A DNA stretch of 64,000 nt from Desulfurivibrio alkaliphilus AHT 2 (GCF_000092205.1 NC_014216.1:1431742-1495741), one strand, 5' to 3'. Positions 5,871 through 62,125 are shown, numbered from the stretch's first letter. The notes: generated from the sequence alone by a model not told the origin. Program-made: numbers and translations.

Positions 5871-7457
5871 TTGATCAGCAAACTCATTCAGCGCATCCGG
5901 CGCCGCCTGCGCACCGGCAGCGACGCCACCGCCCAAACCGACCACAAGCCAGCGGACGACACCCTGCAAACAGCAGATTTCGGCGCAATAGCAACAGGTG
6001 CCGCCACTTCCGGCGAAACCGACGAAAGCCGGCCCCAAAAACGCCGGCGGCGGCGCAAGCGCAAACCCAAAGCAGACCAGCCGGCCACCGCCGACCAGGC
6101 GGCAACCACCCCGGAGGCCGCCAACTGGAGCCTGGAGGATTTTCAAGTACCGCCGGCGGAAGGCAAGACCCGCTTCCACGATCTTGATCTGCCTCAGGAG
6201 TTGATGCGGGCCATTCACGCTTCAGGTTTTCAGTATTGCACCCCCATACAGGCGGAGATTTTGCCCCCCACCCTGGCGGGCCACGATGCTTTCGGCAAAG
6301 CCCAGACCGGCACCGGCAAAAGCGCGGCCTTTTTGATCAGTATCATCACCCGCCTGCTGCGGGAGCCGGACACCGTGCCGCGCCAACTGGCACTCCCCAA
6401 GGCCCTGATCCTGGCCCCCACCCGGGAGTTGGCCATCCAGATTCACCGGGACGCCGAAGAGCTTACCCAATACTCCGAGCTCAACTGCGTGGCGGTGTTC
6501 GGCGGCACCGATTACGAAAAACAGCGCAAAATGTTCGAGCAGGCCCCGGTGGACCTGCTGATTGCCACCCCCGGCCGGCTGCTGGATTTCGCGCGCCAGA
6601 AGGTGGTCTCGCTGAAAGAGGTACGGGTACTGGTCATCGACGAGGCCGACCGGCTGCTGGACATGGGTTTTATCCCCGATGTACGCCGGATTATCCAGCA
6701 GACTCCCGAGAAGAGCCAGCGCCAGACCCTGTTCTTCTCCGCCACCCTTAACTCCCAAATCGCCAACCTCTCGGCCCAGTGGACCAAAGACCCGGTCACG
6801 GTGGAGATCGAACCGGAACAGGTGGCCTCGGACCGGGTTGAACAGCGGGTTTATATGGTTACCGCCAAGGAAAAGATGACCGTGCTTTACAACCTGATCA
6901 CCGGCAAGCAACTGGAGCGGGTGATTGTCTTCTGCAACCGCCGGGACGTTACCCGACGGGTGCGGGAACGGCTCTACCGCCACGGCATCTCCTGCGCCAT
7001 GCTCTCCGGCGAGGTAAGCCAGCAGCAGCGGATGAAAACCTTGGACAACTTCAAGGAAGGCAAAATCCGGGTGCTGGTGGCCACCGACGTGGCCGGACGA
7101 GGGCTGCACATCGAGGGCATCAGCCACGTGATCAACTACAACCTGCCCGAGGACGCCGAGGATTACGTGCACCGTATCGGCCGCACCGGCCGGGCCGGGG
7201 CCAGCGGGATTTCGGTGAGTTTCGCCGACGAAGAGGAATCCTTCTACCTGCCGGCCATCGAGGAGTACATGGGGCGCAAACTCGATTGCGTCTACCCCGA
7301 AGACGAGTTGCTTATCCCCCTGCCCCCGCCGGTACAAAAAGCACCGCCGGTGGACAAAAATTTAAGCGGCAACCAAGGCGGCCGCTCCGGCAAACCCGGG
7401 CGCAAAAGCGGCCCTCCCCGCCGCAGCAGCAACAGCGGCCGCCCACGGCGCTCGTAA
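5871..7457 (+). CDS. rhlB: DEAD-box ATP-dependent RNA helicase, RhlB-like
   Basis: A 528-residue helicase that unwinds structured RNA. Residues 1-95 form a low-complexity tail with a basic patch ([11 protein letters not shown] near residue 56) as in Pseudomonas-type RhlB. The core follows with the Q motif (FQYCTPIQ), motif [26 protein letters not shown] ([13 protein letters not shown]), SAT, and the C-terminal motifs [11 protein letters not shown] and [11 protein letters not shown] short Pro/Gly/Arg-rich tail ends the protein. The start is TTG, preceded by AGAGG at good spacing; there is no in-frame ATG before the helicase core. The stop abuts palindromic repeat R2. RhlB rather than RhlE or SrmB is the best guess but not certain. 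Confidence 0.9.
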
Positions 7458-48213: not shown

Positions 48214-48271
48214 TGGTGCCCGGAGCGAGAATCGAACTCGCACAGCCTTACGGCCGAGGGATTTTAAGTCC
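48214..48271 (-). pseudogene. 3' half of split host tRNA-Leu(UAA)
   Basis: Minus strand from the anticodon loop (GGACTTAAAATCC at 48259-48271) through the variable arm, the T arm GCGAG-TTCGATT-CTCGC and the acceptor strand TCCGGGC followed by ACCA. The 5' part is missing here and is found at 56588-56629. Joining the two at the shared 13 bases gives a perfectly paired tRNA-Leu with acceptor GCCCGGA/TCCGGGC. Confidence 0.93.
48259..48271. repeat. Left attachment core (13-bp direct repeat)
   Basis: GGATTTTAAGTCC, identical to 56588-56600. It covers the anticodon (TAA on the minus strand) and part of the stem of tRNA-Leu, so crossover took place in the anticodon arm. Confidence 0.9.
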
Positions 48272-48313
48272 ATAATTGCCAGTTTTAATAAATTTGATTG
48301 ATCAAGAAAAAGC

Positions 48314-48342
48314 TTGCAATTTCAACAAATCCCCTCTATTTT
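48314..48342 (+). promoter_or_regulatory. Candidate promoter for the integrase gene
   Basis: TTGCAA (48314-48319) and TATTTT (48337-48342) are 17 bp apart and about 80 bp upstream of the integrase ATG, in AT-rich sequence. Confidence 0.4.
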
Positions 48343-48374
48343 ATCCCTAATGTGTTTGAACGGTTTTGAACCAA

Positions 48375-48395
48375 TCTGATGCACCGCTGATGCAC
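48375..48395. repeat. Left arm-type site, paired TGATGCAC repeats
   Basis: TGATGCAC-CGC-TGATGCAC, two copies of an 8-bp unit 11 bp apart (about one helical turn). The same 21 bases recur in direct orientation at 56509-56529 near the right end. Placement near both cores fits integrase or excisionase arm-binding sites. It lies 25 bp before the integrase gene and could let the protein regulate itself. Confidence 0.7.
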
Positions 48396-48419
48396 CAGGC
48401 AAAAACCAGGGGGTAAAAA

Positions 48420-49715
48420 ATGGCTATATCAACCAGAGAGCAAGCGGCAAAAATACGGATCAATAAAACCAATGTCGAAAAACTCACCGCCACCGATGGC
48501 CGGGCCATTTTTTGGGATGATTCTATAACAGGTTTCGGTGTGCGGGTGATGCCGTCCGGCACCAAGACCTATTTTTTCCAAGGCAGAGTCGGCCGGGAGT
48601 TGATCCGCATCACCATAGGGAAACACCCCGCCGTCACTCCAGAGCAGGCCCGCAAGCTGGCCAAAATCCACGCCGGGAACATTGCCACCGGCAAAGACCC
48701 CCGCCCGGAACGCCAGACCGCCGCAAATGCCACCTTTGGCGACCTCATGACCGCATATGCCGATCTGTTGGAAAGCCAAGGAAAGAAGGACGCAAGGCCC
48801 GTCCGCCTGCAAATAATCAGGAACATTCAGAAGGCCCACCCCCGCATCTGGAAAAAGCCGGTTTCCACCATTGATCTTGACGACTGCATGGTGATCGTAG
48901 GCAAGCTTCGGGATGAGGGCAAACCCCGCCAGGCCGACAAGATCAGGTCATATATCAGAACCGCTTTTTCCGAGGCCATTAACGCCCGTGGTGACGTGAA
49001 CATGCCCGCGACCATGCGGCGGCTTGACATCAAATACAACCCAGCCCGCGACATGCGGAAAGTGAAGGGATCGAGCGGCGCTAAAGACCGCGCCTTGTCC
49101 CTGGCCGAGTTTCAGGCTTACTGGAGGCGCATCAAGGAGCTACAGGAACCGGCCCGATCATTAACCATGCTGCATGTGCTTACCGGCGGACAGCGCCAGC
49201 AACAACTGGCCCGTGCCACCCTGAACGATATTGACCGTGACGCCCCTTCCCTTTCCATCCTGGACTATAAAGGCCGCCGATCCAAGCCCCGCTTGCATGT
49301 TCTCCCGCTGCTGCCGGAGGCCCTGGAAGCTATCGACGCCATAACCGGTGGCGGTGAGTTTGTTTTTTCCTGCGACGGCGGCTTAACGCCTATCCACAAC
49401 GCATATCTGAATGATCAGATCAAGAAGGTTCGGGCCGCCATGGAGGCCGCCGGGGAACTGGAAAAAGGCCCGTTTACTGCCGGTTCAATCCGGGCAACCA
49501 TAGAAACGAGGCTGGCCGCCAAACCTTACCGGGTAGGATCTGACGTCCTGGCCCACCTGCTGTCTCACGGTATGGGCGGCATACAAGCCAGGCACTATCA
49601 GCACCATAATTTTTTCGATGAAAAACTAGAGGCCCTGGAAAAACTCCACCGTATGCTTGAAGGGCAGGCGGAGCCGGTGGCCGAGATCATCCCGATGCGG
49701 AGGGCGACAGCATGA
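48420..49715 (+). CDS. int: Tyrosine site-specific recombinase (integrase) of the element
   Basis: A 431-residue integrase of the P4-like type. The N-terminal domain (TDGRAIFWDDSITGFGVRVMPSGTKTYFFQGRV) is the arm-binding DUF4102-like fold; a core-binding SAM-like domain follows (residues about 105-190). Catalytic residues are the first Arg in LTGGQRQQQLARA, an Arg in GSIRATIETRLA, His in LLSHGMGG and the nucleophile Tyr in ARHYQHHNF. The usual His of the HxxR box is replaced (GSIR), a variation seen in some recombinases. AGGGGG precedes the ATG. Its stop overlaps the next start (ATGA). Confidence 0.93.
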   Translation: MAISTREQAAKIRINKTNVEKLTATDGRAIFWDDSITGFGVRVMPSGTKTYFFQGRVGRELIRITIGKHPAVTPEQARKLAKIHAGNIATGKDPRPERQTAANATFGDLMTAYADLLESQGKKDARPVRLQIIRNIQKAHPRIWKKPVSTIDLDDCMVIVGKLRDEGKPRQADKIRSYIRTAFSEAINARGDVNMPATMRRLDIKYNPARDMRKVKGSSGAKDRALSLAEFQAYWRRIKELQEPARSLTMLHVLTGGQRQQQLARATLNDIDRDAPSLSILDYKGRRSKPRLHVLPLLPEALEAIDAITGGGEFVFSCDGGLTPIHNAYLNDQIKKVRAAMEAAGELEKGPFTAGSIRATIETRLAAKPYRVGSDVLAHLLSHGMGGIQARHYQHHNFFDEKLEALEKLHRMLEGQAEPVAEIIPMRRATA

Positions 49716-50335
49716 GGCTAAAAAACCTTTCAAAGGACGCTAGGCGTTATCTAGAAAACCACCCCTTGACCAAGGCCGCCATGGATGCAACAGACCTTTC
49801 CTTTGGGCAATTATTGGAACGCCTGAGCGTTCATCCAGGTGATCCGATTTACCCTGAAACATGGGCTGTTTCATGGTTTAACGAAACGGCCGAGAACATC
49901 CCACAAATCCTCCCGCAATTCATTCCTAGCTTGCAGCCATTTGCCTTGCTTGTGTGGTTTCACCTGCCCGATTCCTGGGATGGAACTTGCCGCCGCGACA
50001 CTGTGGGGCAATACCTCTTAAAGGCAGAGTATAGCCTATCATGGAAGGCAAACGTCGCGAGGCAAGCGCCCCTTAATCAGATCAATGCTGCCCGGCGGGA
50101 GCTTAAAGACTTCACAAAAGAGCTTGCAAAAAAAGAATGGGCCAAGGACACAGACCGCACCGTCAGGATCAAGGACATGTGCAAAAAGGTTTACCCCGCA
50201 TTGTGCGAGCATGCCGCCAATAAAAACATTTCCGATCTTGTTCCAGACAAAGAAGAAGGAATAAAGCCGTGGTTACGAGATGTTGCGCCTGACTACGCAA
50301 AAAAACAGGGCAGACCACCAAAAAAGAGAAAATAA
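49712..50335 (+). CDS. Hypothetical protein of the element, 207 aa
   Basis: I do not recognise this protein. It overlaps the integrase stop by four bases (ATGA), so it is translationally coupled to it. It is hydrophilic and moderately basic, with a basic C-terminal tail (KKQGRPPKKRK) and a tryptophan-rich middle (WAVSWFNETAEN, LLVWFHLPDSWDG). Base composition is more AT-rich than the host genes, in line with foreign origin. A DNA-linked function is possible from the tail, but nothing more can be said. Confidence 0.7.
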   Translation: MRLKNLSKDARRYLENHPLTKAAMDATDLSFGQLLERLSVHPGDPIYPETWAVSWFNETAENIPQILPQFIPSLQPFALLVWFHLPDSWDGTCRRDTVGQYLLKAEYSLSWKANVARQAPLNQINAARRELKDFTKELAKKEWAKDTDRTVRIKDMCKKVYPALCEHAANKNISDLVPDKEEGIKPWLRDVAPDYAKKQGRPPKKRK

Positions 50336-50345
50336 AATATTGGTG

Positions 50346-50372
50346 CCGTACGTAAAATATAATTACCGTACG
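50346..50372 (+). promoter_or_regulatory. Candidate promoter/operator before the AlpA-like gene
   Basis: A perfect -10 box TATAAT (50358-50363) lies between two CCGTACG repeats (50346-50352 and 50366-50372) that start 20 bp apart. Each contains the palindrome CGTACG. The layout fits a repressor pair covering a promoter; no good -35 box is visible, so the promoter may need an activator. Confidence 0.5.
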
Positions 50373-50450
50373 CAAGCCAAATTTTATTCGTAGTTACAAT
50401 GCTTTAATGTGCCTTCATCAGACCCAATTCCAACTGATGGAGGTAGCAAA

Positions 50451-50681
50451 ATGCAGGACCAACCAAACCACCCCACCACCACGTTGCCGGATTCGGCAAC
50501 CGTCACCCTGCCGCAACTATGGGATCAAAAACAACTCTGCGCTTACGTTAAAAAGTCCGAAGCCTGGGCTGAAAGGGCGCGGTGGGCAGGAGAGGGGCCG
50601 AAGTACATCAAGCTTGGCCGCCATGTCAGGTATCGAGTCTCTGACGTGCTGGAATGGCTTAATCAGTGCGAGGGGGTGTGA
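50451..50681 (+). CDS. AlpA-like helix-turn-helix regulator/excisionase
   Basis: A 76-residue protein with a MerR/AlpA-type winged helix: LWDQKQLCAYVKKSEAWAERARWAGEGP and KYIKLGRHVRYRVSDVLEWLNQ. In P4-type elements and satellites, such proteins switch on replication or excision. I chose the ATG at 50451, with GGAGG seven bases upstream, over an earlier ATG at 50409. The stop is followed after two bases by the primase-helicase start, so the two are coupled. Confidence 0.85.
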   Translation: MQDQPNHPTTTLPDSATVTLPQLWDQKQLCAYVKKSEAWAERARWAGEGPKYIKLGRHVRYRVSDVLEWLNQCEGV

Positions 50682-50683
50682 AA

Positions 50684-52969
50684 ATGACAACCCCCAATCA
50701 CCAGAGCGGCAACCGGGGGCAGATAGTGACTGGGCATCACTATACTGCCACAAAGGCGACCAAAAATCAAGATGCTATTACCCGCTTCCGGGCGGCAATG
50801 CTGGCCGATGGCCTCAACCCCCCGGCCGAGATCCCCACCGATGGCCGGGAAGTCCGATTCCCTGGCGAGGGAAAGGGTAGGGACAATACCGCCGGATATT
50901 GCAAGTTTAACGGCACAACCGGCAAATATGGCGACTTTATCCGCGACCTTCACCGGGTATGGCCTGACAAGAAGGAAGTCTCCGAGGATGACACCCGCCA
51001 CCAGGAGGCCGCTGATCGTGCCCGCTCAATCTGGAATGAAGCCGACCGGGCCAGGCAGGACCACCCCTATCTATGGAAGAAAGAAGTCGGCCACAAGGAT
51101 TTGAGGGCCACCCGCGACGGTGAACTGATCATCCCCCTCATTGACAATGCTGGCGAAATTCAAACCCTTCAATTCATCGACGCCAACGGCAACAAGAAAT
51201 TTTTGTCCGGCGGCAGAAAAAAGGGATGCTTCCACCTGATCGGCAAGCTGAGTGATGACCCCTCGACCGTCATCGTCTGCGAGGGCTACGCCACCGGCAT
51301 GAGCATCAGGATGGAAACCGGAGCAGGTGTAGCTTGTGCCATGGATGCTGGAAACCTGCTGTCAGTCGCCAAGGCGATCAAAGAGATTTGCCCCGAATCC
51401 GAAATCATCCTGGCCGCCGACGATGACCACCAGACCGATGGCAACCCCGGCCTGGCAAGCGCAGCCGAGGCGGCCCGCGCCGTCAACGGCTTGCTGGCGG
51501 TGCCTGACTTCGGGGATGACCGGCCCGATGGTGCAACCGACTTTAACGACCTGGCCCGCGCCAAAGGCCACTACGCCGTCCTGCGCTGCATCCAGGCCGC
51601 CACCCCGCCACCCACCGGACCGGCCGTCCTGACGTACTCTGACCCCCTGGAAGCGGCCAAGGTGTTTAGCGAGTCGGCCCCGCCTTTGAGATTTTGGCAG
51701 GATCAATTTTTCATTTATGATGGTTCGGCCTATCACGATGAATCGGCCAACGACATCAAGGCCGCGCTGTATGACTTCCTGGCCGACGCAAAGGTCGTTG
51801 TTGACGGCAAGCTCCAAAAGTACAAAGCCAATCGAAACAGGGTAGGCGAGGTGCTGGACGCCCTGAAAGCGGCTGTAAACCTGGCTGACCGGATTACTGC
51901 CCCATCATTTATTGGCAATAGTGGCCGGGATGCTTCCGAGTACATAGCCGCCGGTAACGGTATCTTGCACTTGCCCACCAGAGAGCTATTGCCACCGGAC
52001 CCGGCTTTCTTCACCCGGAACGCCCTACCCTTCAACTATAACCATGATGCGCCACCGCCTGCGGCCTGGCTTCAATTCCTCAACTCATTGTGGCCCGATG
52101 ACCCGGAGGCCATCAAGACCTTGCAGGAGATCATGGGCTATCTGCTGACATCAGATACGACCCAGCAGAAAATCTTCGGCATTGTCGGACCCATGCGATC
52201 AGGCAAAGGCACGATAGGGCGAATTATCACCGCTCTGCTGGGCCAGGCTAACGTCGCCGGACCTACCCTATCGGCTCTTTCTCAACAGTTTGGCATTGCC
52301 AGCTTGATCGGAAAAAAGGCCGCTATCATTTCCGATGCCCGCCTGGGATCAAGGGCAGATCAGGCCGCCATTACCGAGCGGTTGCTGGCGATCAGTGGCG
52401 AGGACAATATCTCGGTGCCGCGCAAGTTCCTAAATGACTTTACCGGCAAAATGGACGTTCGGTTTGTCATCCTCACAAACGAGCTACCCCGGCTTGCTGA
52501 TTCATCTGGCGCACTTGCCAATCGGTTCGTCATGCTCACGATGACCCAGTCATTCCTGGGCCGGGAAAGGCCAGGGCTGACCAAGGATCTACTGGCCGAG
52601 CTGCCGTCAATCCTCAACTGGGCGCTTGACGGCCTGGAGCGCCTGACCTCTCGCGGGTATTTCGTCCAGCCTGCAAGCAGTCGGGAGGCCATGCAGGAAC
52701 TGGCCGACCTGAGTAGTCCTATCGGAGCCTTTGTCCGGGACCGCTGCGAAGTCGGGCAGGGCCTGGCCGTCGAGGTGGGCTTGCTCTATGAAGCCTGGAA
52801 GCAATGGTGCAATGACCACGGCCGGGAGCATCCGGGCACCTCACAGAGCTTTGGGCGGGATATACGGGCCGCTGTACCGGGAATATCCACCAAGCAAAAG
52901 CGGGCCGGTGGCGATATAATTCGCGTTTACGAGGGTTTAACCCTGTCACGCAGTGTAACGCGTGTCTAA
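50684..52969 (+). CDS. Primase-helicase (Toprim primase plus D5/SF3 helicase)
   Basis: A 761-residue replication protein. The N-terminal third is a Toprim-type primase with STVIVCEGYATGMSIRMETGAGVACAMDAGNLL (catalytic Glu), and EIILAADDDHQTDGNPG (acidic pair). The C-terminal half has a D5-like region and an SF3 helicase with Walker A FGIVGPMRSGKGTIGRII, a Walker B-like AAIISDARLG and motif C VRFVILTNELPRLADSSGALANRF. Such proteins start and drive autonomous replication of satellites and plasmids. The ATG at 50684 has GAGGGGG upstream. The noncoding repeat region just after the gene is a possible origin. Confidence 0.9.
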   Translation: MTTPNHQSGNRGQIVTGHHYTATKATKNQDAITRFRAAMLADGLNPPAEIPTDGREVRFPGEGKGRDNTAGYCKFNGTTGKYGDFIRDLHRVWPDKKEVSEDDTRHQEAADRARSIWNEADRARQDHPYLWKKEVGHKDLRATRDGELIIPLIDNAGEIQTLQFIDANGNKKFLSGGRKKGCFHLIGKLSDDPSTVIVCEGYATGMSIRMETGAGVACAMDAGNLLSVAKAIKEICPESEIILAADDDHQTDGNPGLASAAEAARAVNGLLAVPDFGDDRPDGATDFNDLARAKGHYAVLRCIQAATPPPTGPAVLTYSDPLEAAKVFSESAPPLRFWQDQFFIYDGSAYHDESANDIKAALYDFLADAKVVVDGKLQKYKANRNRVGEVLDALKAAVNLADRITAPSFIGNSGRDASEYIAAGNGILHLPTRELLPPDPAFFTRNALPFNYNHDAPPPAAWLQFLNSLWPDDPEAIKTLQEIMGYLLTSDTTQQKIFGIVGPMRSGKGTIGRIITALLGQANVAGPTLSALSQQFGIASLIGKKAAIISDARLGSRADQAAITERLLAISGEDNISVPRKFLNDFTGKMDVRFVILTNELPRLADSSGALANRFVMLTMTQSFLGRERPGLTKDLLAELPSILNWALDGLERLTSRGYFVQPASSREAMQELADLSSPIGAFVRDRCEVGQGLAVEVGLLYEAWKQWCNDHGREHPGTSQSFGRDIRAAVPGISTKQKRAGGDIIRVYEGLTLSRSVTRV

Positions 52970-53047
52970 GCACTGTAGGTGCTTCAACAGGTAAAAATTA
53001 TATAAGTAGTAAACACAATGCACTGTATCGCGTGACATCGCGTGACA
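52944..53047. repeat. Iteron-like repeats, candidate replication origin of the element
   Basis: The 366-bp gap 52970-53335 has no gene. At its start are two tandem 10-mers TCGCGTGACA (53028-53037, 53038-53047), an inverted copy of the core TGTCACGC at 52944-52951 and two GCACTGTA copies (52970-52977, 53020-53027). An AT-rich stretch lies between them and a second, long AT-rich stretch follows. Such a layout beside a primase-helicase gene fits an origin. The rest of the gap shows no clear structure to me. Confidence 0.55.
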
Positions 53048-53335
53048 CCCTGGGACTTTACATCCTGGATGGTTTCGAGGGAATGGTTAATGGCAAATCT
53101 GCCCGTTTTTCGGCCCTCTACCCTGGCCCAAGCAAAATAAGTGATAAAAAACATGACATCAGGGATATTTAGTCCCTTATGTGTTGCAACTTTATCACGC
53201 TAAAAAAGGAACTTATACGCCGCTTTCTTACTCCGTGCATCATGTGGTTGATCAAAGCAGGGCTACATGGTATATATAGCAGGTATAAACGAGATAGGCA
53301 GCAGTTACAGCCAACCATACGAAACGAGGTGACAA

Positions 53336-53689
53336 ATGGCCGTCAAGACCCCACCTAGCAGATATTCAGCCGACTGGCTTGATAAGTTGGATGGACGCTC
53401 CAGGGTATACCAAGTACTCAAGCAGCGCCACGACAATATCTTGTCCGACCTGGGCGGCCCTGAAGGCATGAGCTATGCTCAACGGGCTTTGGCTTCGCGG
53501 GCTGTCTGGCTGGAATACTGGATAGAGCAGCAAGAGCGCAACCTTGCCAACGGCGGAGACTTCGACAGCGGGCGATATACGCAGGCTTGCAACTCGTTGA
53601 TGGGCTTGCTCGCCAAGCTGGGATTGAAGCGCCAAGCCAAGGACATAACCCTTGCTGATTACATTAAACAGCGGGAGGCCAGCGCGTGA
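53336..53689 (+). CDS. Putative small terminase subunit or terminase-associated protein
   Basis: A 117-residue helical protein with charged N-terminal part (SADWLDKLDGRSRVYQVLKQRHDN) and a C-terminal block MGLLAKLGLKRQAKDITLADYI that I associate with proteins encoded directly before large terminases. There is no clear helix-turn-helix. GAGG precedes the ATG at good spacing. Its stop overlaps the GTG start of the terminase gene (GTGA), a strong sign of partnership. The small-terminase label rests mainly on position. Confidence 0.6.
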   Translation: MAVKTPPSRYSADWLDKLDGRSRVYQVLKQRHDNILSDLGGPEGMSYAQRALASRAVWLEYWIEQQERNLANGGDFDSGRYTQACNSLMGLLAKLGLKRQAKDITLADYIKQREASA

Positions 53690-55083
53690 ACATCATTCAG
53701 GCGGCCCAAGACCCGGCGCTTTTTGCCCGGTGGTTTAAGCAAGGTGACTGGTCGGCCTGGTTTGCCTTTTTATCAGCCGTTTTTGGCCTGGAGATGAACC
53801 AGGAGCAGCGGCGGATATTTGAAACCTGCACAGGTCGCCAGAAAGCGCCAGAAAGCCCTGTCAAGGAAGCCTGGCTAGTGGTGGGCCGTAGGGGCGGCAA
53901 GAGCTTCACAACGGCCCTGATAGCCGTTTACCTGGCCGCATTTCACGATTACCGCCAGTTTCTCCAACCCGGCGAGCGGGGAACGGTCTTGATTCTCGCG
54001 GCAGACCGGAAGCAGGCAAGGACAATATTCCGCTACGCCCGCGCCATGGTGCTGGAAATCCCAATGCTGGCCGGGTTACTGGAGCGCGAAACAGCGGACG
54101 GCCTGGAGCTTAAAAACAGCGTGTCCATTGAGATTGCCACCGCCAGCTACCGGGCCACCCGTGGTTATACAGTGGTGGCCGCCCTGCTGGATGAGATAGC
54201 GTTCTGGTTTACAGACGGCGCGAACCCTGACCACGAAATCGTCAACGCCATTCAACCCGGCATGGCGACCATTCCCAACGCCATGATGCTGGTGCTGTCC
54301 TCGCCCTATGCCAAGCAGGGCGAGTTATACCGCGCCTACCGCGAGAGTTTCGGGGCAGATGACCCGGAAGTTTTGGTTTGGCAGGCAGACACTAAGACCA
54401 TGAACCCCAGCGTACCCGACCGCATTATTCAGCGGGCATATGACAGAGACCCGGCAGCGGCGGCGGCAGAGTATGGCGGGCAATTCCGGGATGACTTAGA
54501 GCAATTTGTTTCCCGCGAGGTGGTGGACAGCTGCACCCGTGAGGAACCTACCGAACTGCCGCCGATCTCCAGTAATCGGTATTACGGTTTTACGGACCCT
54601 TCCGGCGGGAGTGCTGACTCAATGACGCTTGCCATTTCCCACCGTGAGGGCGACCGGGTAGTAATTGACGCGGTACGCGAGGCAAAGCCACCGTTCAACC
54701 CCTCGGACGTGGTGAAAGAGTTTGCCGCCTGCCTGAAGGCTTACGGTTTGCGCCGTGTTACTGGTGACCGCTACGGCGGCGAATGGCCCCGCGAGCGTTT
54801 CCGGGATGCAGGGATTGAATACGACCTTGCCGACCGTGCCCGCACAGAACTTTATCGCGACATGCTGCCCATGATGAACGCGGCAAATATCGAGATTCCG
54901 CCCGTTGTGAAATTAACGGGCCAATTAACAAACCTGCAACGGCGCAAGGGCCGGAGCGGCAAGGACATTATCGACCACCCGCCAGGCGGTCATGACGACC
55001 TGGCTAACGCGCTAGCGGGTGCGGCAGTAATGGCAGACGGGGCCGACACATCAAGGCGGCTCCATAACTTAGTAACTTGGTAA
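53686..55083 (+). CDS. Phage terminase large subunit
   Basis: A 465-residue DNA-packaging motor. The ATPase has Walker A WLVVGRRGGKSFTTALIAVY near residue 65 and Walker B TVVAALLDEIAFW; a coupling motif VLSSPYAKQGELYRAY follows. The RNase H-like nuclease has acidic sites in YYGFTDPSGGSADSMTLAIS, RVTGDRYGGEWPRE and GGHDDLANALAGAA. All motifs look intact and the length is normal, so it is likely active. The start is GTG within a GTGA overlap. No portal, protease or capsid gene follows, which is unusual next to a terminase. Confidence 0.92.
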   Translation: MNIIQAAQDPALFARWFKQGDWSAWFAFLSAVFGLEMNQEQRRIFETCTGRQKAPESPVKEAWLVVGRRGGKSFTTALIAVYLAAFHDYRQFLQPGERGTVLILAADRKQARTIFRYARAMVLEIPMLAGLLERETADGLELKNSVSIEIATASYRATRGYTVVAALLDEIAFWFTDGANPDHEIVNAIQPGMATIPNAMMLVLSSPYAKQGELYRAYRESFGADDPEVLVWQADTKTMNPSVPDRIIQRAYDRDPAAAAAEYGGQFRDDLEQFVSREVVDSCTREEPTELPPISSNRYYGFTDPSGGSADSMTLAISHREGDRVVIDAVREAKPPFNPSDVVKEFAACLKAYGLRRVTGDRYGGEWPRERFRDAGIEYDLADRARTELYRDMLPMMNAANIEIPPVVKLTGQLTNLQRRKGRSGKDIIDHPPGGHDDLANALAGAAVMADGADTSRRLHNLVTW

Positions 55084-55097
55084 CCAAGAGGTACAAA

Positions 55098-55451
55098 ATG
55101 AAACTTTCAAGAGACAAAACACTTTGGGTAACGGGCCGTGTTGCCGCCAGTTATCCGCAACTGGACCCAGCTACCGTCAACAGCCTGGTTTCTGACACCC
55201 TTCACGCTGGCTTGATTTTCGACACCACCCCGGCCAGCCAGAGGGATGACGGCCTGCGGACCGATTCAGCACATGGCCGCCTAGACACAGCCCGGCGAGA
55301 AGCCGAAAAGGCAGTAACCGGGGCTTACAAACAGCCCAGCAAGGGATTAACCCGCGAGACTGCCAAGAGCGACGGCAAGGAGGTCAGCAGCTCATCCGAA
55401 GCGGCCCGCCAGCGGATGCTGGACGCCACCACCAACGCATGGCAACGATAG
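55098..55451 (+). CDS. Hypothetical protein of the element, 117 aa
   Basis: An unrecognised protein starting MKLSRDKTLWVTGRVAASYP, with AGG seven bases before the ATG at 55098, 14 bp after the terminase stop. It is hydrophilic with a disordered Ser/Lys-rich C terminus. It precedes the coiled-coil gene by 8 bp. No domain is evident. Confidence 0.6.
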   Translation: MKLSRDKTLWVTGRVAASYPQLDPATVNSLVSDTLHAGLIFDTTPASQRDDGLRTDSAHGRLDTARREAEKAVTGAYKQPSKGLTRETAKSDGKEVSSSSEAARQRMLDATTNAWQR

Positions 55452-55459
55452 GTGACAAC

Positions 55460-56026
55460 ATGAAGAACGTGCAAGAGCTGGAAAACAAAATCGAGGCAGC
55501 CAACCAAGAACAGGCGACGGCTCAAGAGGCCCTGGACGCTGCCAAGGCGACCTATCAGCAGGCCGTCAAGAGCGGCGACCTGAAGCAGGCAAAAGAGGCG
55601 GCCAAGGAGCAGGAAGAACGCCAGCGCGAGCTGGACCTACTGAGCGACCGCCTGGAGGCCCTGGAACAAAGTCGCGTGGAAGCCGAGCAACGCGACCATG
55701 GCCCGGCGTATGAGCAAGCCAAAAAGCAGGCACAGGAAGCGTTACAGGTCCAGGTAGCAACCCACCAAGAGTTTGCCGCGCTGGTCGATAAGTTGGGCGA
55801 GATGCGGCAACGCCTGGACAAGGTACACCGCGCCACGTTTTCCACAGTGCTTACTGCCTACCGCGCCGCCGATGCCGCACATCATACGCGCCCCCGCTAC
55901 CGGCCAAGCCAGTTAGCGAGCACGGGTGGACCGCAAAAGCTGCTGTCATTGGCCCGCGAGCTGGCGAACGTATCGAACGACAACGCGCGGCAAATGTTCG
56001 CGCTGGAGCAACGCCACAAAGAGTAA
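55460..56026 (+). CDS. Coiled-coil protein of the element, 188 aa
   Basis: Residues 1-120 form a heptad-rich coiled coil with many Gln, Glu, Ala and Lys (NVQELENKIEAANQEQATAQ, KEQEERQRELDLLSDRLEAL). The C-terminal part is basic and less regular. AGG seven bases before the ATG at 55460 supports the start; an earlier ATG at 55439 is inside the previous gene. A scaffold-like or structural role would be a guess; no known family is recognised. Confidence 0.65.
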   Translation: MKNVQELENKIEAANQEQATAQEALDAAKATYQQAVKSGDLKQAKEAAKEQEERQRELDLLSDRLEALEQSRVEAEQRDHGPAYEQAKKQAQEALQVQVATHQEFAALVDKLGEMRQRLDKVHRATFSTVLTAYRAADAAHHTRPRYRPSQLASTGGPQKLLSLARELANVSNDNARQMFALEQRHKE

Positions 56027-56075
56027 CCTAATTAAGTGGGCCGCCGGGTTTCCAGGTTTCCGGCACCTGCGGGGA

Positions 56076-56108
56076 GGTCACGTCGCAAGGCGTGGCCTTT
56101 CTTTTTGT
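56076..56108 (+). terminator. Likely terminator after the element's gene block
   Basis: GGTCACG (56076-56082) can pair with CGTGGCC (56091-56097) around an eight-base loop, followed by TTTCTTTTTGTT. It lies 50 bp after the coiled-coil gene. Between 56109 and 56371 I see only a small CGCCC-AAAA-GGGCG hairpin (56283-56296) and a perfect 12-bp palindrome GGTAACGTTACC (56344-56355). Confidence 0.6.
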
Positions 56109-56371
56109 TGTGCCAATCTCCCAAACAGTGGGACCAGGCGCAAAGGTTTACCAACGTTAACCCCCTTTCCTGCGATGAGGTGGCGGAACACCACCCCCAT
56201 AAGGTGAAGCGCCGCCCCCTTTATGCCCTAGAGGACAAAAACCCATCTATGGGTAACGAAACACCCCCACCGCCCCCCTTTTCGCCCAAAAGGGCGTAAA
56301 CTCATCATGAGGTCGTGATCTGCGACCCCACCACCCGTTATAGGGTAACGTTACCGGAAACGATATTTTAA

Positions 56372-56458
56372 TGGTGCCCGGAGCCGGAGTCGAACCGGCA
56401 CGGCCTAACGGCCGCGAGATTTTAAGTCTCGTGTGTCTACCAATTCCACCATCCGGGC
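56372..56458 (-). tRNA. tRNA-Leu (anticodon UAA), carried by the element
   Basis: A complete 87-nt type II tRNA on the minus strand: acceptor GCCCGGA/TCCGGGC, anticodon stem CGAGA/TCTCG around CTTAAAA, a variable arm, T arm GCCGG-TTCGACT-CCGGC and encoded ACCA. It has the same anticodon as the split host gene but differs in the D arm, anticodon stem, variable arm and T stem. It lies inside the element, 130 bp from the right core, and faces the same way as the broken host gene. Confidence 0.96.
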
Positions 56459-56508
56459 ATTTTGATCAAAAAAATACCTTCACCCTAGGGACTAAACTGC
56501 CACGCTGT

Positions 56509-56529
56509 TCTGATGCACCGCTGATGCAC
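56509..56529. repeat. Right arm-type site, paired TGATGCAC repeats
   Basis: A second identical copy of the 21 bases at 48375-48395, in direct orientation, 59 bp inside the right core. The match supports a role in integrase binding. Confidence 0.7.
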
Positions 56530-56587
56530 AGGGTATTTTATCTGCCATAACTAATTGTTTTTCCGTGCCACACCTGCCTGAAAAGCA

Positions 56588-56600
56588 GGATTTTAAGTCC
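56588..56600. repeat. Right attachment core (13-bp direct repeat)
   Basis: GGATTTTAAGTCC, identical to 48259-48271; marks the junction of element and host tRNA-Leu 5' half. Confidence 0.9.
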
Positions 56601-56629
56601 CTTGCGTCTACCAGTTCCGCCATCCGGGC
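56588..56629 (-). pseudogene. 5' half of split host tRNA-Leu(UAA)
   Basis: On the minus strand it begins GCCCGGATGGCGGAACTGG, runs through the D arm and the anticodon stem (AAGGG) and ends with the shared core. The matching 3' half is 8.3 kb away. Any host promoter upstream of 56630 would now transcribe this fragment and then run into the element's own tRNA-Leu. Confidence 0.93.
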
Positions 56630-59143: not shown

Positions 59144-60740
59144 GTAATGTCCCAACCTACCGATCTACATTTTAAAGCCTGGCCCTGGCTGCTGGCTTTC
59201 ATTGCCCTGCAGGCAACCGGGCTCGCGGTGCTGTTCAAATTCACCCATCTGTCACTGACCGACCCCGACCTGCAAAGCCTTTACGGTTGGCTGGCAGTCG
59301 CCGCCGTGGTCACCAACCTGATTTTTTGGCTGATCCTGCGCCAGACCAGCATCCTGCGCCGAACCCAATTGGAGTTGCAGAACAGCAAAACCCGGTTGGA
59401 GGAATCCCAGCGGATTGCCAAAATCGGCCATTGGGAATGGGATATCGAAAAAGAGCATCTGTTCTGGTCGCCGGAGTTGTACCGGATTTTCGAGCGCCGG
59501 CCCGAACAGTTTCAGGCCAGCTACCAGGCCTTCCTGGCCACTATCCATCCCGATGACCGGGAACTGGTCCAGAAGGAGGTCAATAAATCGCTGGAACGCC
59601 ATCTCCCCTACAGCGTTGATCACCGCATCATGCTGCCCGGCGGAGCGGAAAAGTTCCTGCGTGAAACCGGCGAACTGCTTTTTGACCAGAAGGGCAAGCC
59701 GTACAAGATGCTGGGCACGGCCCAAGATATCACCGCGGAGAAAACGGCGGAGCAAGAACTGCACCATCGCATGCAGATGCTGACCTTAACCGCGGAGGTC
59801 GGCATGATGCTGACCCGCAACACCCCCCTGGAAACCATCCTCCAGGAATGCTGCAAGGCCATGGTCAGACACCTGGACGCCGCCCTGGCCCGCATCTGGT
59901 TGATCCCAGAAATGGACTCCAGCCTGATCCTGACCGCCAGTGCTGGCCTGCACACCCGACTTGACGGAGAGTTTTCCCGGATACCCATCGACCCCCGCAC
60001 CAAAATCGGCGATATCGCCCTGCACCGCCGGGCCAAAGTTTCCAACCAACTGCTCAATGACCCCCAAATCAGAAACCCCCGCTGGGTTGAACAGCACAAG
60101 TTACGGGCGATGGCCGGCCACCCGTTGGTCATCGACGGCAAAGTGGTCGGGGTTATGGCCTTTTTCACCCGCCACCACCTGCCCCAGTCCATTATCGAGC
60201 CCCTGGCCACGGTGGCCGACATCGTCGCCCTGGGCCTGGAGCGCAAACAGACGGAAGAGCGGCTGCGGGTGCGAGCCAGGATCATCGAGGAACTCCACGA
60301 TGCCATCATCACCACCACCCCCGACGGCCTGATCAGCAACTGGAACCGTGGGGCCGAGCGCCTGTTCGGCTACACGGCCGCCGAGGCCCGGCAGCAGCCG
60401 TTGCACTTTTTTCTGCCCCCGCATGAACTGGATTTTTTCCAGTCGGAAATCCTGCCCCGGGTAGAGGAAAAGGGCAACCACCAGTTTGAAATTGAAATCC
60501 AGACCCAAAACGGCCTCCATCGCCATGCCGACTTTTCCCTTTCACGGCTCAACCGCGACAGTTTTATCGGCGGCGGCCTGATCTGTTACGCCCGGGATAT
60601 CACCGAGCGCAAGCAAAGCGAAGAAAAAATCAGGCTCTCCCGCCAGCTCCTGGATGAGACCAGCGAGGCGGTGGTGATTACCGACGCCGACGCAAAGATC
60701 ATCGAGGTCAACCGGGCCTTTGAAAAGGTCACCGGCTACT

Positions 60741-62125
60741 GGGTTATAGTCAAATCTGGTGTATGGGATAACTGAGGAAAATGGCGTATCATCCAGGTTG
60801 ATTGATCACCACGACGATCACAGCCAACACAGGAGGATACGCCATGACCAAGTCTACCCCAACCGCTCTTTCACAACAAGGAAACAATGTCGCCGACCCG
60901 CTTACCGACCTTTTGCGCGATGGTGCCAGGATGCTGATTGCCCAGGCCGTAGAAGCTGAATTACAGGCCTTCATGGCCCAATACTCCAGCCGCTTGGAAG
61001 ATGGCCGCAGGACAGTGGTCCGAAACGGCTATCTTCCCGGTCGCACGATCCAGACCGGAATCGGCGATGTCGAGGTCAAAGTTCCCAAGGTGCGAGATCG
61101 TAGCGGCCAAGGCCTCAAGTTCAACAGCAGTTTGTTGCCGCCTTATCTGAAGCGGGCGCGCAGTGTCGATGAGTTGCTGCCCTGGCTTTACCTGCGAGGA
61201 ATTTCCACCGGCGATTACCAGGAGGCCCTGGCCGCACTCCTCGGGGAACAGGCCAAGGGGTTGTCGGCCAACACCATCTCCCGCTTGAAAGCCAAATGGC
61301 TGGCCGAGCACACCAAATGGCGGCAACGTGACCTGAACGGAAAACGCTACGTTTACTGGTGGGTGGATGGCATCTACAGCAACGTCCGCATGGATGACAA
61401 GCTTTGCCTGCTGGTGATCATTGGAGTTACCGACCAGGGGCACAAGGAACTGATAGCGGTGGAGGATGGCTACCGGGAGTCAAGCGACAGCTGGTATGAA
61501 CTTCTCGCCGGGCTGCGGGCTCGGGGCCTGACCACAGGCCCCGAGTTGGCGGTTGGCGATGGTTCCTTGGGGTTCTGGAACGCCTTGGGCAGGGTCTATC
61601 CGAAGACCCGCCACCAACGCTGCTGGGTTCACAAAACGGCCAACGTGCTGAACAAGATGCCCAAAAAGCTTCAGCTCAAGGCCAAGGCTGATTTGCATGA
61701 TATCTGGATGGCTGAGACCAAGGAAGATGCCAGCCAGGCTTTTGATCGTATGCTGGCCCGTTTCGAAGACAAATACCCCAAGGCCATGGAGTGCCTGGCC
61801 AAGGACCGGGACGAGTTGCTGGCTTTTTACGATTTTCCAGCCGAACACTGGGTGCATATCAGGACCACCAACCCCATCGAGTCGGCCTTTGCCACTGTGC
61901 GCCTGCGCAGCAAGAGATCACGGAACTGCGGTTCCAGGGACACCACCCTGACCATGGTCTTTAAGCTGCTGCAAAGCGCTGAAAAAAGATGGAAAAAGAT
62001 CAAGGGATTTCGCCGGCTGGCTGAGGTCGTCACCGGCATACAATTCAAAAACGGAATCAAGGTGTCAGATCAACCTATGCGGATGGCCGCCTGAGGACTC
62101 CGTACACCAGATTTGACAATAACTC
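60741..62125 (+). mobile_element. IS256-family insertion sequence
   Basis: A 1385-bp element. Its ends are inverted repeats of about 25 bp that match at 22 positions (60741-60765 and 62101-62125), with the shared block GTCAAATCTGGTGTA. A 9-bp direct repeat CCGGCTACT flanks it (60732-60740 and 62126-62134), which is the target duplication. One transposase gene fills it. Perfect ends and duplication show a recent insertion. Confidence 0.95.
60844..62094 (+). CDS. Transposase, IS256/Mutator family
   Basis: A 416-residue transposase. The first 90 residues hold LQAFMAQYSSRLEDGRRTVVRNGY and EVKVPKVRDRSG. The DDE triad is in YVYWWVDGIYSNVRMDD (first Asp), LAVGDGSLGFWNALG (second Asp) and NPIESAFATVRLR (Glu), with the typical HQRCWVHKTANVLNKMPK segment between. 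AGGAGG lies seven bases before the ATG at 60844; an upstream in-frame start at 60802 is less likely. No stop or frameshift is seen, so it may be active. Confidence 0.95.
   Translation: MTKSTPTALSQQGNNVADPLTDLLRDGARMLIAQAVEAELQAFMAQYSSRLEDGRRTVVRNGYLPGRTIQTGIGDVEVKVPKVRDRSGQGLKFNSSLLPPYLKRARSVDELLPWLYLRGISTGDYQEALAALLGEQAKGLSANTISRLKAKWLAEHTKWRQRDLNGKRYVYWWVDGIYSNVRMDDKLCLLVIIGVTDQGHKELIAVEDGYRESSDSWYELLAGLRARGLTTGPELAVGDGSLGFWNALGRVYPKTRHQRCWVHKTANVLNKMPKKLQLKAKADLHDIWMAETKEDASQAFDRMLARFEDKYPKAMECLAKDRDELLAFYDFPAEHWVHIRTTNPIESAFATVRLRSKRSRNCGSRDTTLTMVFKLLQSAEKRWKKIKGFRRLAEVVTGIQFKNGIKVSDQPMRMAA

Follow-up and report, generated by a model that had tools for sequence, protein, structure and literature searches.

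A tRNA-Leu(UAA) gene split by an 8.3-kb element

In a 64,000-nucleotide stretch of the Desulfurivibrio alkaliphilus AHT 2 genome (GCF_000092205.1 NC_014216.1:1431742-1495741; hereafter the window, with positions counted from its first letter), the two halves of one transfer RNA (tRNA) gene, tRNA-Leu(UAA), flank an integrative element. The element spans 48272-56587 (8.3 kb) and is bounded at either end by a 13-bp core, GGATTTTAAGTCC. The features on which the analysis turns are as follows.

48214-48271, minus strand: host tRNA-Leu(UAA), 3´ half with the core; identical (100%) to nucleotides 30-87 of the rejoined gene
48259-48271: 13-bp attachment core GGATTTTAAGTCC at the integrase-proximal junction, identical to 56588-56600
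48375-48395: arm-type repeat pair TGATGCACC/TGATGCAC on the integrase side; 21-bp repeat identical to 56509-56529
48420-49715, plus strand: tyrosine integrase of 431 aa with an Arm-DNA-bind_3 domain (Pfam PF13356, 3.8e-14; PF00589, 1.4e-4; PHROG integrase, 4e-33)
56372-56458, minus strand: complete replacement tRNA-Leu(UAA) with CCA encoded (ARAGORN); 84% identical to the host tRNA, stems intact
56509-56529: tRNA-side pair of arm-type repeats, starting 59 and 70 bp past the core, with similar spacing in the integrase clade
56588-56600: 13-bp attachment core at the distal junction, same sequence as 48259-48271
56588-56629, minus strand: host tRNA-Leu(UAA), 5´ half with the core; identical (100%) to nucleotides 1-42 of the rejoined gene

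Both cores correspond to the anticodon stem-loop of the minus-strand host gene, which is split in the anticodon loop. Joining the halves at the core in silico gave a canonical 87-nt tRNA-Leu(UAA), identical over its 87 nt to the intact gene of one same-genus genome (G003, 100%) and nearly so to that of another (G001, 99%). The split is therefore not a chance resemblance. In both of these genomes the genes of the window's upstream flank are conserved beside the intact tRNA gene, and the relatives thus hold the site empty.

When attP, attL and attR were each scanned alone with ARAGORN, no tRNA was found, so that neither junction rebuilds one, and the identity between attP and attB is limited to the 13-bp core. 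An earlier note on this DNA had described a tRNA-Leu(UAA) broken in the anticodon loop and restored at neither junction, and had proposed a search for an intact empty site in relatives; the description holds and the site is there.

A complete tRNA inside the element is the only UAA reader found in the host

The complete tRNA-Leu(UAA) lies inside the element, 130 bp beyond the broken 5´ half and in the same orientation, as the earlier note had it. It and the host tRNA have identical acceptor stems, but 14 of the 87 positions differ. Ten of the differences make up five double compensatory pair changes; the others are one G-U to G-C change in the variable arm and three changes in loops. Because most of the changes form compensated pairs and none breaks pairing, we conclude that the replacement evolved as a working tRNA. 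It is nearer (90%) to the tRNA of another genome of the same order (G035) than to that of its own host (84%).

The host genome (3.10 Mb, one contig) gave 46 tRNA matches, among which the leucine tRNAs besides that of the element read UAG, CAA, CAG and GAG. Neither a DNA search that took the rejoined host tRNA as query nor a degenerate pattern revealed any further UAA tRNA in this genome; the earlier note had made its argument depend on this point. UUA is read solely by the UAA anticodon under standard decoding, and UUA codons are used in neighbouring host genes (three in AMMECR1, two in PFK, one in MATE). With a single UAA tRNA and UUA codons in use, the element's tRNA should therefore be indispensable to the host.

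The arrangement recurs in other genomes and viral contigs

Three close relatives of the integrase (61-67% identity) were found in the GTDB collection, in Vreelandella neptunia, Vreelandella glaciei and Marinobacter bryozoorum. In each, a 3´ half lies beside the integrase, a 5´ half lies 9-10 kb away, and a complete tRNA-Leu(UAA) stands just inside the element end. A further gammaproteobacterium (G803, of Vreelandella's class) shows the same anatomy as the window, with an integrase of the same clade. Counting that of the window there are five integrated copies; in each the halves rejoin to a tRNA-Leu(UAA), and a pattern search of the five element-bearing genomes found no UAA gene besides the replacement. 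The broken gene stands third in a tRNA-Gly-Cys-Leu array in V. neptunia and V. glaciei alike. Between the tRNA-Gly and tRNA-Cys genes of V. neptunia we also noted a degenerate tRNA-Gly-like stretch (L039, 19717-19803), perhaps the scar of an older event.

An IMG/VR contig, L088, with an integrase 63% identical to that of the window, shows the attP form twice, each time as complete tRNA, core and integrase with no host halves. This metagenomic contig (IMGVR_UViG_3300001097_001974) holds two tandem 9-kb element copies, identical over most of their length with one stretch at 93.8%; the contig is thus either a true tandem or two variants assembled together, and does not simply prove a circle. Three more viral contigs emerged when the layout was sought by pattern without regard to the integrase: L137, in the attR form with arm sites of the window type; L136, in the attR form within a 37-kb contig; and L133, in the attP form in a 60-kb contig where the nearby integrase is different and distant. 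Most of the matches to this pattern among viral contigs were rejected as ordinary tRNA clusters holding two complete tRNA-Leu genes.

Other searches set bounds on this distribution. A scan of the viral collection with the window integrase alone gave no match, and alignments gave L088 only; in phage and plasmid collections no integrase reached at least 60% identity, all being under 60%. No further copies of the integrase clade were found in 395 genomes of the window's own phylum. Among 391 genomes of V. neptunia's order, the strict attR pattern matched V. neptunia alone, so the arrangement is rare in that order.

The flanks of the core are altered in the replacement tRNAs of the window, Vreelandella and L088. 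Stem mutations that destroy the core might serve as a general guard against self-insertion; this idea was considered and rejected, as the replacement tRNA of G803 retains all 13 bp.

Proposed route of integration and expression

A perfect 21-bp repeat, made up of a pair of TGATGCAC arm-type sites, lies on both sides of the core, the layout to be expected when the integrase has an arm-binding domain, and across the integrase clade the arm repeats start 57-60 and 68-71 bp past the core. A TAGGGACTA-like motif, possibly a site for a host factor or an excisionase, recurs near the arm sites on the integrase and tRNA sides of attP (window, L039, L105 and L088).

We consider it very probable that this 8.3-kb, phage-satellite-like element uses tRNA-dependent integration. 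In the route proposed here, its arm-binding tyrosine integrase would catalyse recombination between the 13-bp core in attP and the anticodon stem-loop of the single host tRNA-Leu(UAA) gene. The host gene would be destroyed on integration, because attP lacks the 3´ half, and the cell would survive through the complete tRNA-Leu(UAA) sited right behind the attP arm sites, making the replacement essential in the integrated state. Transcription from the host tRNA promoter would then pass the broken half and the arm region and reach the replacement, which would be freed by RNase P and the usual tRNA nucleases, and excision would rebuild the host gene exactly.

The earlier note had suggested that the host tRNA promoter could drive the replacement by read-through, and the geometry of every integrated copy fits this: the distance from core to tRNA start is 81-92 bp in clade relatives and 130 bp in the window. 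No sigma-70-like site clearly above shuffles was found in the core-tRNA gaps of nine loci with consensus promoter scans, which weak or non-sigma-70 promoters could escape. Since no gap promoter rises above chance, read-through fits, and capture of the host tRNA promoter by the element is the simplest reading.

Some observations weigh against this proposal. In the window's gap a short CCCTAGGG palindrome is followed by seven consecutive T, a feature that could make read-through less efficient. The tRNA of actinobacteriophage Fionnbharth is driven by a strong promoter of its own (PMC10865867), and the lack of a sigma-70 match leaves room for one here. Finally, lysogeny in the strict sense would find no support in the gene content, as Pfam and PHROG scans of the window element recognised no capsid, portal or tail gene; 'tRNA-dependent integration' is therefore the safer term.

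An own promoter for the replacement, its place beside attP being merely inherited, would affect the read-through step only. The Fionnbharth example and the promoters that consensus scans miss speak for it; the nine gaps with no promoter-like site clearly above shuffles, the shared orientation and short distance in all loci, and the Vreelandella site as third member of a tRNA array speak against it. We regard it as a serious though rather unlikely alternative.

The earlier note had also cast the tRNA as an addiction or guard device, kept mainly since cells that lose the element are punished. As the sole UAA reader, its imprecise deletion would indeed kill. Excision by the integrase, however, would, through the 13-bp core, give back the exact host tRNA, so that controlled loss, the commonest route, would be harmless, and the replacement would be required at integration itself, whatever its later effect. 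A primary role of this kind is thus improbable: addiction would be at best a by-product of a tRNA whose first job, on our analysis, would be to make integration survivable.

There is very little to recommend the idea that 56372-56458 is an old host tRNA beside the attachment site by chance, and the broken gene a redundant duplicate: a junction is near and the tRNA-Leu(UAA) is of normal bacterial type, but it lies inside the cores and past the arm sites, same-genus genomes carry one intact gene that is identical to the broken one and 84% identical to 56372-56458, related elements in other hosts hold a complete tRNA at the same place, and L088 carries one without host halves. Equally improbable is classical restoring integration, with the halves as displaced debris and the complete tRNA as the restored target: restoring elements do occur, in a relative of the integrase and at the same tRNA in the same genus (below), but the complete tRNA of the window differs from both host halves (84%), arm sites lie between it and the core, and neither junction holds a complete tRNA. 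Of the two findings that the earlier note said would overturn it, another intact host tRNA-Leu(UAA) and related genomes that show 56372-56458 to be an old host gene, neither turned up.

Gene content resembles that of phage satellites

The genes between the integrase and the replacement tRNA are listed here.

49712-50335, plus strand: 207-aa protein of no assigned function, with no Pfam, PHROG or PADLOC match; the other elements have no homologue of it, and the slot varies from one to the next
50409-50681, plus strand: AlpA-like HTH_17 regulator or excisionase (PF12728, 6.7e-9; PHROG_66, 3e-6)
50666-52969, plus strand: Toprim / D5-type primase-helicase (PF13362, PF19263, PF08706; PHROG DNA primase, 1e-74)
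53336-53689, plus strand: 117-aa protein before the large terminase gene, putative small terminase subunit (TerS) from its position; 42-51% conserved and in the same place in other elements
53686-55083, plus strand: terminase large subunit (TerL), 465 aa (PHROG_2, 3e-32)
55077-55451, plus strand: hypothetical protein, 124 aa (open reading frame only)
55439-56026, plus strand: hypothetical protein, 195 aa (open reading frame only)

PADLOC revealed no defence cargo worth naming in the element. Across the family the core-to-core size is 8.1-9.7 kb. The integrase, the 117-aa protein and TerL (about 39-66% identity) are common to the integrated members, the replication module varies (D5 type, VapE type, AAA_25, DUF3987), and the gene after the integrase is non-homologous between elements. 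Two Vreelandella elements (L039 and L040) are near-identical in integrase and replication protein (99% each), with TerL only 40% identical and a different gene after the integrase, which suggests module swapping.

The elements of this clade look like phage satellites: that of the window is small, has an integrase, a regulator and replication genes, and lacks a complete virion gene set. It shares with P4-like satellites, phage-inducible chromosomal islands (PICIs) and capsid-forming PICIs (cf-PICIs) the small size, the integrase, the AlpA-like regulator, the primase-helicase, a packaging gene and the lack of tail genes. Unlike them, it has its own large terminase and no capsid. The capsid genes that mark cf-PICIs are not recognised in it, whereas its relative L088 has an HK97-type capsid protein and a prohead protease, with TerL not recognised.

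Elsewhere in the window, 59147-60775 is a seemingly truncated PAS-domain sensor gene, directly followed by a transposase-like open reading frame at 60802-62094 (IS256/Mutator type, by eye only).

Known replacing systems

tRNA-dependent lysogeny was defined and proven experimentally in mycobacteriophages (Guerrero-Bustamante & Hatfull, 2024, PMC10865867), where the documented role of the phage tRNAs is to make integration survivable. The window element has its main features: a tyrosine integrase with attB inside a tRNA gene, a short core (13 bp; ~10 bp expected) with no tRNA rebuilt at attL or attR, a broken tRNA that is the sole copy of its isotype and probably essential, and a complete element tRNA of the same isotype. 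The carrier differs, as TerL is present and no virion gene is recognised, so that it is not a temperate phage by its genes. Like actinobacteriophages (Fionnbharth K4, cluster L and Gaia; PMC10865867), it combines a tyrosine integrase and arm sites with no tRNA reconstruction, and a disrupted sole host isotype with a same-isotype tRNA of its own (their core is 8-17 bp, in the tRNA). The carriers in that study are full-size temperate phages of Actinobacteria that mostly use tRNA-Lys(TTT), and the Fionnbharth tRNA, which has its own promoter, lies on the strand opposite to gene 37, overlapping the 3´ end of that gene; here, elements of 8-10 kb without tail genes use tRNA-Leu(UAA), and the tRNA is fixed beside attP.

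Rhizobial prophages offer further precedents. In the group of Rhizobium phage vTRX32-1 (PMC8631192), a tRNA-Leu is broken at a 12-bp core by a prophage that brings along a tRNA of similar function, and prophages of Sinorhizobium meliloti like Mesorhizobium phage Lo5R7ANS interrupt a tRNA-Leu centrally and likewise carry a functionally similar one (PMC11476347). These differ from the window element in that the vTRX32-1 relatives are phages of 42-45 kb (PMC8631192), the S. meliloti target is tRNA-Leu(UAG) (PMC11476347), and replacement was inferred, not studied as an attP-linked design (PMC8631192, PMC11476347). The mechanism itself is thus already known from actinobacteriophages and rhizobial prophages, while what appears new among the open-licence papers searched is the kind of carrier, its target, the range of hosts and the constant place of the tRNA beside attP.

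Restoring relatives and the order of events

Classical Islander-type islands and prophages share the tyrosine integrase, the tRNA target and the direct-repeat ends, but restore the tRNA at one junction (PMC4383910), whereas the window element regenerates its target at neither. Both modes are also found among actinobacteriophages, in which restoring sister integrases exist (PMC10865867). The nearest relative that behaves differently, in genome G333 (integrase 53% identical), restores the tRNA through a classical 57-bp core repeat. In the integrase tree it groups, weakly supported (85/87), either close to the replacing members or among them, and the tree does not say which of restoration and replacement is the older.

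In the same genus, genome G002 carries a different 7.5-kb element in the same tRNA-Leu(UAA), with an integrase about 28-30% identical, and this element restores classically. It lies in locus L098 (G002:C1:352000-370000) at 6804-6890 and 14407, with a further tRNA-Ser nearby. Since replacing and restoring elements both occupy it, tRNA-Leu(UAA) is a hot spot used both ways. Outgroup integrases in G105 (L096, 15211; G105:C26) and G304 (L092) adjoin lone tRNA-Leu 3´ halves, for which the other element end could not be placed; a matching tRNA-Leu(UAA) pattern is present on another contig of the same genomes.

Implications

A broader proposal, which we offer tentatively and hold at slightly less than even chances, is that a satellite-sized family made the replacement tRNA a fixed part of attP. 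Integration would place this tRNA behind the host promoter, just past the arm sites; the integrase clade would need only the conserved anticodon stem-loop and could do without the host gene's 3´ half, making tRNA-Leu(UAA) genes across distant bacterial groups usable; and the sole UAA tRNA of the host would become a horizontally acquired one.

The authors of PMC10865867 asked how common tRNA-dependent lysogeny is beyond actinobacteriophages. There is now a conserved Gram-negative example, in elements far smaller than phages and with a restoring relative to compare, and it comes with a simple rule for test: the tRNA beside attP, with the host promoter driving it. Island finders that seek restored tRNAs would overlook such elements. 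For the bacteria that carry them, a tRNA that should be indispensable is a mobile-element gene.

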